Shown here one piece after another: positions 2,976 to 3,662 of a stretch of DNA of 34,821 nt (position 1 is the stretch's first letter; every line of letters starts with the position of its first letter). The DNA is from a virus, in IMG/VR virus record IMGVR_UViG_3300027969_000019, positions 1 through 34,821 of that record, one strand, 5' to 3'. The position numbers and the translations under genes were made by a program. The notes below the pieces were generated by a model. The model searched no databases, had not been told where the DNA came from, and was given only the letters and a program-made list of their open reading frames with translations.

Positions 2976-3212
2976 ATGACAGATGCACAACTAATTGATA
3001 TGTTGGGCCGACCAGCAAAGGTAGCAAAGCTATGTGGCGTAACGGTTCAAGCGGTGTGTCAATGGCGCAACAATAACCAAATACCAGCGGCACCATTGAT
3101 GTTAATTGCGGCAACAATTGAAAAAGAAAGCCACGGATTGGTGACTAGAAAAGACCTTTTTCCTAATACCTGGCAGTTAATTTGGCCGGAGTTACAAGAA
3201 ATAAATTTGTGA
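2976..3212 (+). CDS. Cro/YdaS-like DNA-binding regulator, 78 residues
   Basis: Small helix-turn-helix protein. Residues 13-37 match the HTH of the Cro/YdaS group, with Ala and Val in the supporting helix and a VTVQAVCQWR recognition helix. The C-terminal RKDLFPNTWQLIWPEL block is characteristic of YdaS-like proteins. Binding site AAAAAGGAAAATAA before the ATG. It lies immediately beside the divergent promoters, so it probably binds operators there and perhaps the related dyads at 743-760 and 3633-3650. No CI-type repressor is present, so it may be the only regulator of the early switch. Confidence 0.85.
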   Translation: MTDAQLIDMLGRPAKVAKLCGVTVQAVCQWRNNNQIPAAPLMLIAATIEKESHGLVTRKDLFPNTWQLIWPELQEINL

Positions 3213-3218
3213 TATAGT
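3191..3218 (+). promoter_or_regulatory. Promoter of the candidate small RNA
   Basis: GTTACA (3191-3196), 16-base spacer, TATAGT (3213-3218) preceded by TGA to give an extended -10. The predicted start is near 3225, just past the regulator gene. No start codon with a binding site follows closely, so it most likely drives the non-coding RNA that ends at the terminator near 3351. Confidence 0.6.
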
Positions 3219-3224
3219 TCTAAA

Positions 3225-3351
3225 CATTGAGGACTGGAATACTCGATGAATAGGGTTTTAGAGGTAACTTTGTGGGTTTAGGAAATAAGATAAGAGGTAT
3301 TTCCTAAGTCATTCCAGCATAAAGCTACCCCTAAAGCCCTTTTTGTTTTTT
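3225..3351 (+). ncRNA. Candidate ~125-nt small RNA with intrinsic terminator and crossing helices
   Basis: Three helices are visible. Helix A: 3252-3271 with 3321-3340, 20 positions with one wobble and two A-C mismatches, followed directly by T5-G-T6, a classic terminator. Helix B, inside A: 3275-3287 with 3298-3310, 13 bp including two wobbles, with a 10-base loop. Helix C: CTGGAAT (3234-3240) with ATTCCAG (3311-3317), 7 perfect pairs. Helix C crosses helix A, so the RNA either forms a pseudoknot or switches between two folds. It has its own promoter and sits between the regulator gene and the early operon, where phages often keep small antisense or regulatory RNAs. No known family was recognised. 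Confidence 0.6.
3252..3351 (+). terminator. Rho-independent terminator of the small RNA
   Basis: Long stem 3252-3271/3321-3340 enclosing a second hairpin, followed by TTTTTGTTTTTTC at 3340-3352. It would also stop read-through from the Cro/YdaS-like gene into the early operon unless helix C (3234-3240 with 3311-3317) hinders the stem. Confidence 0.65.
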
Positions 3352-3352
3352 C

Positions 3353-3560
3353 AGTTCCCATCGTTCTGATTGGGGATTCACCACCACCAGCGGTCAGGAT
3401 AGAAGCGTTACTGGGGGATTAAAGGATGCAATAGCGCAAAGTAGGTGGCGAAGATAGTGCCTACTCCTTGAACGACTGTCGGGTTCTGTGGCTCCGAAAA
3501 GGAAAACAGTTGAAGGCGAACCAGGTGGGCGAGGTTCGTCCACCAAAAAGGAATGTTACT
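3353..3560 (+). other. Gene-free, GC-richer structured stretch; possible second RNA or origin
   Basis: No convincing reading frame, yet about half G+C by eye in an AT-rich genome. Helices seen: a CCCA/TGGG hairpin at 3357-3374; AAGGA (3422-3426) with TCCTT (3465-3469) enclosing a GTAGG/CCTAC hairpin; ACTGT (3475-3479) with ACAGT (3506-3510); GGTTC (3482-3486) with GAACC (3518-3522), which crosses the previous pair; and a strong 9-bp hairpin at 3524-3544. GGGGATT occurs twice (3373 and 3414). It could be the downstream part of a longer RNA, a separate RNA, or a replication origin. No promoter was identified for it. Confidence 0.4.
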
Positions 3561-3626: not shown

Positions 3627-3662
3627 TTTACAAGTAAAGTTTTCTTTAGTAAATTATCCATA
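3627..3662 (+). promoter_or_regulatory. Early rightward promoter with palindromic spacer (copy 3 of 3)
   Basis: TTTACA (3627-3632), 17-base spacer, TAAATT (3650-3655), predicted start near 3661-3662. The spacer carries AGTAAAG-TTTT-CTTTAGT (3633-3650), one mismatch from the perfect dyad of copy 1. It drives the early operon that begins at 3698. Confidence 0.65.

Follow-up and report, generated by a model that had tools for sequence, protein, structure and literature searches.

A phage-encoded RNA with covarying crossing helices and a terminator-like 3' end, located ahead of an exchangeable RNA slot

The HK022 put RNA is a structured RNA encoded close to where early transcription of the phage begins; it suppresses termination downstream (PMC9378689), and the GOLLD and ROOL RNAs, which are phage or environmental, are oligomers (PMC12286853). 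The phi29 pRNA is also a phage RNA that forms oligomers, its loops pairing between molecules to give a ring on the packaging motor, and its kissing loops co-vary between phages. The window analysed in the present study, the whole 34,821 nt of the 34.8-kb virus record IMGVR_UViG_3300027969_000019, carries terminase, portal and endolysin genes and, directly 3' of a Cro/YdaS-like regulator gene, a structured element at positions 3225-3351. The match to the Betaproteobacteria-1 RNA (RF02932) begins 12 nt 3' of the element and is followed by two small ORFs and a DNA methyltransferase gene. A sequence-only reading of the window had placed the element next to the early operon; this needs correction, since the next feature is the Betaproteobacteria-1 RNA, which that reading missed. 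The features of the locus are as follows.

2976-3212, + strand: Cro/YdaS-like regulator gene, 78 aa (Pfam YdaS_toxin 9e-9, P22_Cro 3e-7; PHROG transcriptional repressor 5e-16)
3191-3218, + strand: predicted promoter, GTTACA (3191-3196), a 16-nt spacer and an extended -10 with TG 5' of TATAGT (3213-3218), TGATATAGT; consensus match (9 of 12 positions), -10 position common to homologues
3225-3351, + strand: the element in full, an RNA predicted to be ~127 nt long; only window match of the second-subgroup model (3211-3342, E = 1.7e-13)
3225-3248, + strand: P1 hairpin, 3225-3231 with 3242-3248, 10-nt loop; 98.7% of cells paired in 34 relatives
3234-3240, + strand: kissing helix K1, 5' strand (CTGGAAT), inside the P1 loop; 100% of cells paired, 5 of the 7 pairs showing two-sided changes
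3252-3271, + strand: 5' strand of the terminator stem P2; 95.0% of cells paired, two-sided changes at 9 of 20 pairs
3278-3307, + strand: P3 inner hairpin, 3278-3287 with 3298-3307; 95.6% of cells paired in 34 relatives
3311-3317, + strand: K1, 3' strand (ATTCCAG), lying 3' of P3 and 5' of the second P2 strand; perfect 7-bp match, covariation and partner-swap test
3321-3340, + strand: 3' strand of P2; covariation over 34 relatives
3340-3351, + strand: U-tract T5GT6, read from the sequence; T-tract common to homologues
3363-3484, + strand: Betaproteobacteria-1 RNA (RF02932), the module that comes next in the cassette; 86.8 bits (gathering score 49.4)
3627-3655, + strand: promoter-like site TTTACA-17-TAAATT, 5' of the next genes; consensus match only

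The terminator stem P2 comprises 20 positions, with 18 standard pairs (one of them G-U) and two A.C mismatches, and forms together with P3 a nearly continuous helix of ~30 bp. The 7 bp of K1 cross P2 without a mismatch, and K1 is a kissing interaction because its 5' strand is the loop of P1. Folded alone, the 125-nt segment reaches -40.5 kcal/mol, compared with -26.7 +/- 3.4 kcal/mol for shuffled sequences (z = -4.1), and none of 200 shuffles was equally stable. A consensus terminator scan did not report P2, because it permits loops of 3-8 nt only. An 11-codon ORF at 3246 was considered as a leader peptide and rejected, its ATG being missing in several relatives.

None of the 4227 families of Rfam 15 reaches its gathering score over 3225-3351, RF02932 at 3363-3484 being the only match, and permissive scans of the segment returned sub-threshold matches only, mostly to microRNA hairpins. 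The RNA family is thus absent from Rfam 15 and new there, while an earlier description cannot be excluded, the literature search having been limited to open-licence papers; in the papers searched, no description of RF02932 or Betaproteobacteria-1 was found either. Homologues were sought from two starting points, the protein of the regulator gene and the core of RF02932, and ~200 viral loci were obtained. Two core patterns of the element matched 61 and 100 viral contigs, a few of the 100 by chance, so that, counting pattern matches, the family extends over well over 100 contigs of uncultivated phages. A DNA search of isolate phages with three queries gave no match, and among 84,980 species genomes there were six pattern matches, only one of them genuine; it lies on a short contig that had been binned to a Bacteroidota MAG. 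With regard to type III antitoxins (ToxI-like), in which short tandem repeats precede a toxin gene, reading of 3225-3351 by eye revealed no repeat unit, and what comes next is RF02932, two small ORFs without family assignment and a DNA methyltransferase gene.

The helices are supported by comparison of two subgroups of homologues. In subgroup 1, the 34 relatives of the window, the paired share of all cells is 96.5%, and a model built from the second subgroup only still recovers the window element; minus-strand matches of the model were rejected as lower-scoring mirror matches of the palindromic stem. K1, which played no part in making the subgroup 1 alignment, shows 49 two-sided changes in that subgroup and takes the forms CTGGAAT/ATTCCAG, CTTGAAC/GTTCAAG, ATTGAAC/GTTCAAT, CTGAAAC/GTTTCAG, CTAGAAC/GTTCTAG, ATCGAAC/GTTCGAT, ATTAGAC/GTCTAAT and CTGATAC/GTATCAG. 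When partners were swapped between relatives, the own partner of a strand formed 6.97 bp on average and those of relatives with a differing sequence 3.72 bp, indicating that K1 is not a chance pairing. In subgroup 2 (36 sequences), 99.2% of the K1 cells are paired and each of the seven pairs has two-sided changes; own and swapped partners form 7.08 and 4.29 bp, respectively. The strands of K1 thus change freely yet stay complementary, as sequence comparison shows. Alignment shuffles ignore relatedness; the two-sided changes across many sequence types and the swap test are independent of such shuffles, though the sequences are still related.

Subgroup 2 has a second crossing helix, K2, between the P1-P2 linker and the P3 loop, with 30 distinct duplexes and 7.86 bp for own against 5.28 bp for swapped partners. 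The window's subgroup has lost K2, own partners (3.15 bp) pairing no better there than swapped ones (3.22 bp). The sequence of P3 is nearly frozen in subgroup 2, unlike those of K1 and K2. One 44.4-kb contig, IMGVR_UViG_3300047557_000594, holds two copies of the element 35.2 kb apart, L101 (281-405) and L264 (35495-35619), in which P2 and P3 are identical and K1 and K2 differ with compensation. The whole block of regulator, element and RNA is doubled in this contig, and the two elements differ mainly at compensated kissing positions; we infer that the copies are probably strain variants joined in assembly.

The ends of the element are conserved as well. A -10 hexamer (at least 5 of 6 matches to TATAAT) stands 7-11 nt 5' of P1 in 51 of the 52 elements of a wider set, against a background of 2.9%, and these elements stand behind many different upstream genes. 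A T-tract (at least 6 T in 8 nt) follows P2 in all 66 distinct elements, compared with 18% of random stretches. Because both are conserved, the predicted transcript runs from P1 to the U-tract and would be a discrete RNA of ~127 nt in the window. With P2 and the U-tract conserved, the element has the structure of an intrinsic terminator, termination itself being inferred, and the -10 puts the predicted transcription start where the structure begins, as for an independent small RNA, on computational evidence only. The existence and structure of the RNA are thus well supported by comparison, whereas its function is inferred and no experiment backs its expression.

All the parts that the sequence-only reading had described are present. 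The extended -10 promoter 5' of the segment (GTTACA-16-TG-TATAGT) keeps its -10 in homologues, the 20-position stem ending in T5GT6 is kept in them, and the perfect 7-bp helix crossing that stem is paired throughout the 34 relatives. The proposed small RNA, with a promoter and terminator of its own and crossing helices, is supported by the promoter position, the U-tract, the covariation and the lack of an Rfam match, and the remark that no known family was recognised also held in the covariance-model search, RF02932 lying only downstream. Neither of the two outcomes named beforehand as refuting, a significant match to a trivial known element or loss of the helices in homologues, was seen. The hairpins P1 and P3 are additions to that description.

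The element is part of a cassette. Among 69 elements, 66 are directly followed by the Betaproteobacteria-1 RNA (33) or by another recurring RNA type (~21 of one type, 8 and 4 of two more); of the remainder, one element is followed by a possible fifth type, one contig ends too early to tell and one locus, L082, has an ORF between the element and the Betaproteobacteria-1 RNA. At least four RNA types, unrelated to one another, thus occupy the slot behind the element; only one of them is in Rfam, and structure is shown by covariation for the commonest other type only. This type, of ~240 nt, is found at L263:8851-9091 (+), in L132 and L128 and at about 18 other loci; it has no Rfam match, and 16 of its 34 predicted pairs covary. 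Two further downstream types, perhaps three, also without Rfam match, were noticed at L254:6649-6879 (+) and 7 loci, at L317 and 3 loci, and at L296.

The RF02932 core lies 229-255 nt 3' of the regulator match in close relatives and 100-135 nt, without the element, in others; the element and the Betaproteobacteria-1 RNA each occur without the other. Where the element is absent, a -10-like hexamer (at least 4 of 6 matches) is present 4-9 nt upstream of the Betaproteobacteria-1 RNA in 14 of 14 loci, whereas at the 10 listed loci with the element no upstream hexamer exceeds 2 of 6; both sets are related sequences and not independent samples. Comparison thus shows the element, on the basis of a predicted promoter, to have a promoter on its 5' side and a second structured RNA on its 3' side. 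This is the placement of an attenuator, and the second RNA is without a -10 in the presence of the element only. Since its own -10 is then missing, the downstream RNA would have to be made by read-through of the element's terminator, barring a non-canonical promoter. The genes further 3' need not rely on the element, because the promoter-like site at 3627-3655 precedes them.

Several further observations were made on the surroundings. The Betaproteobacteria-1 RNA occurs in phage, its core motif being found in more than 100 viral contigs, and in the window conserved-looking sequence runs past the Rfam match to ~3550; the RNA probably extends further 3' than that match. Varied genes lie directly 5' of the element in L075, L102, L111, L254, L260, L302 and L310, with stop codons 4-22 nt before it; by eye, they resemble sulfurtransferase/PAPS-reductase-like, sugar-nucleotide enzyme, glycan-related and methyltransferase-like genes, and several are inserted between regulator and element, an apparent insertion hot spot. 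Repeated GTAAA/TTTAC blocks accompany promoter-like sites at 3627-3660 (next genes) and 2905-2960 (regulator), and, judged from sequence alone, are probable shared operators of the Cro-like protein.

Considering these results, we favour a conditional terminator, that is, an attenuator-like leader with a kissing pseudoknot, which would also release a stable small RNA; this function is inferred, without transcript, termination or read-through data, and the reading is as likely to fail as to hold. P1, P3 and then K1 would be able to form during transcription, ahead of the synthesis of the P2 3' arm. Because the P1-P2 linker is only 1-4 nt in the window's subgroup, K1 and full P2 should strain each other, and closing of P2 against the K1-locked structure would decide whether transcription stops, setting the ~127-nt RNA free, or continues into the downstream RNA. 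The balance could be set by the infection state, a phage or host protein, or dose, and the released RNA may itself be functional. No classical antiterminator is apparent in the element, because K1 and P2 have no bases in common and the argument for exclusion is steric only; in a search for mutually exclusive terminator and antiterminator folds, no clear alternative pairing was found, leaving only a possible steric conflict between K1 and P2. The ORF in L082 counts against the conditional-terminator reading, and read-through could possibly be simple leakage. The sequence-only reading had left the choice between a pseudoknot and a switch between termination and read-through, and this is not decided here; the placement before an RNA without its own -10 favours the switch, by inference.

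The main rival, which we consider clearly less likely than not, is a stand-alone small RNA, acting in trans or as a homodimer, in which the terminator merely forms the 3' end. In the homodimer version, K1 (and K2) would form between two copies, the P1 loop pairing with the open strand of the other copy to give a self-specific complex. Fixed 5' and 3' ends and the very stable fold support a stand-alone RNA, the short P1-P2 linker makes K1 and full P2 awkward in one molecule, and covariation is blind to whether pairing is intra- or intermolecular. However, this rival leaves unexplained the constant position before another RNA and the lost -10 of that RNA, and the K1 strands showed no consistent target elsewhere. 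A trans target was rejected: 31 nearby copies were counted against 17 expected, but these are either scattered or belong to generic motifs that recur at set positions within the genes for the regulator and the downstream RNA.

A bolder reading, which we regard as unlikely, takes the kissing strands, hypervariable yet matched throughout, as a self-recognition code by which the RNAs dimerise within one phage and not with the RNAs of relatives; if true, a phage-specific RNA dimer would control downstream read-through, sensing dose or excluding co-infecting relatives. Also improbable is a processing or protection module, in which the P2-P3 rod would be cut, for example by RNase III, to define the downstream 5' end, or the pseudoknot would block 5' exonucleases. 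The long, nearly continuous helix, the tight abutment to the downstream RNA and the frozen P3 sequence speak for it; however, such a module would need no promoter at P1 and no conservation of the U-tract, and element-free phages have the same downstream RNA. An ordinary regulator-operon terminator elaborated by drift, which would end the transcript of the regulator or of a gene inserted behind it (a stop codon usually lies 4-23 nt upstream), is very unlikely and already disfavoured, as it would not preserve K1, K2, P1 and a -10 at fixed spacing.

The conditional terminator remains our preferred reading. Whichever reading holds, the analysis adds an RNA family that is missing from Rfam, whose crossing helices covary unusually strongly and which occurs in a group of widespread uncultivated phages, and reveals a cassette in which a conserved terminator-pseudoknot RNA stands ahead of an exchangeable RNA slot. 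It allows the effect of a loop-strand kiss on terminator folding to be tested directly, and raises the question of the rapid diversification of a matched strand pair. As kinds of RNA, terminators, leaders and kissing RNAs are all known; what is new to us, within a limited literature search, is their combination with two hypervariable crossing helices and an exchangeable downstream RNA. The Betaproteobacteria-1 RNA shares the locus and strand and is adjacent, but is a separate RNA starting at 3363. The phi29 pRNA and the GOLLD and ROOL RNAs differ from the element in fold, size and gene context, and oligomerisation of the element is speculative. Like the HK022 put RNA, the element is a structured RNA near the start of early transcription with an inferred link to termination control, whereas put is not described as a terminator itself (PMC9378689). 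Put is a two-hairpin RNA that renders RNA polymerase resistant to terminators further downstream, and the likeness to it rests on context, without a sequence or family link. The element resembles intrinsic (Rho-independent) terminators and the phage tR1-type terminators behind cro in its G-C-rich-based stem, its U-tract and the Cro-like gene upstream, but differs from them in having its own promoter, conserved kissing helices, a conserved inner hairpin and a second RNA directly behind it.
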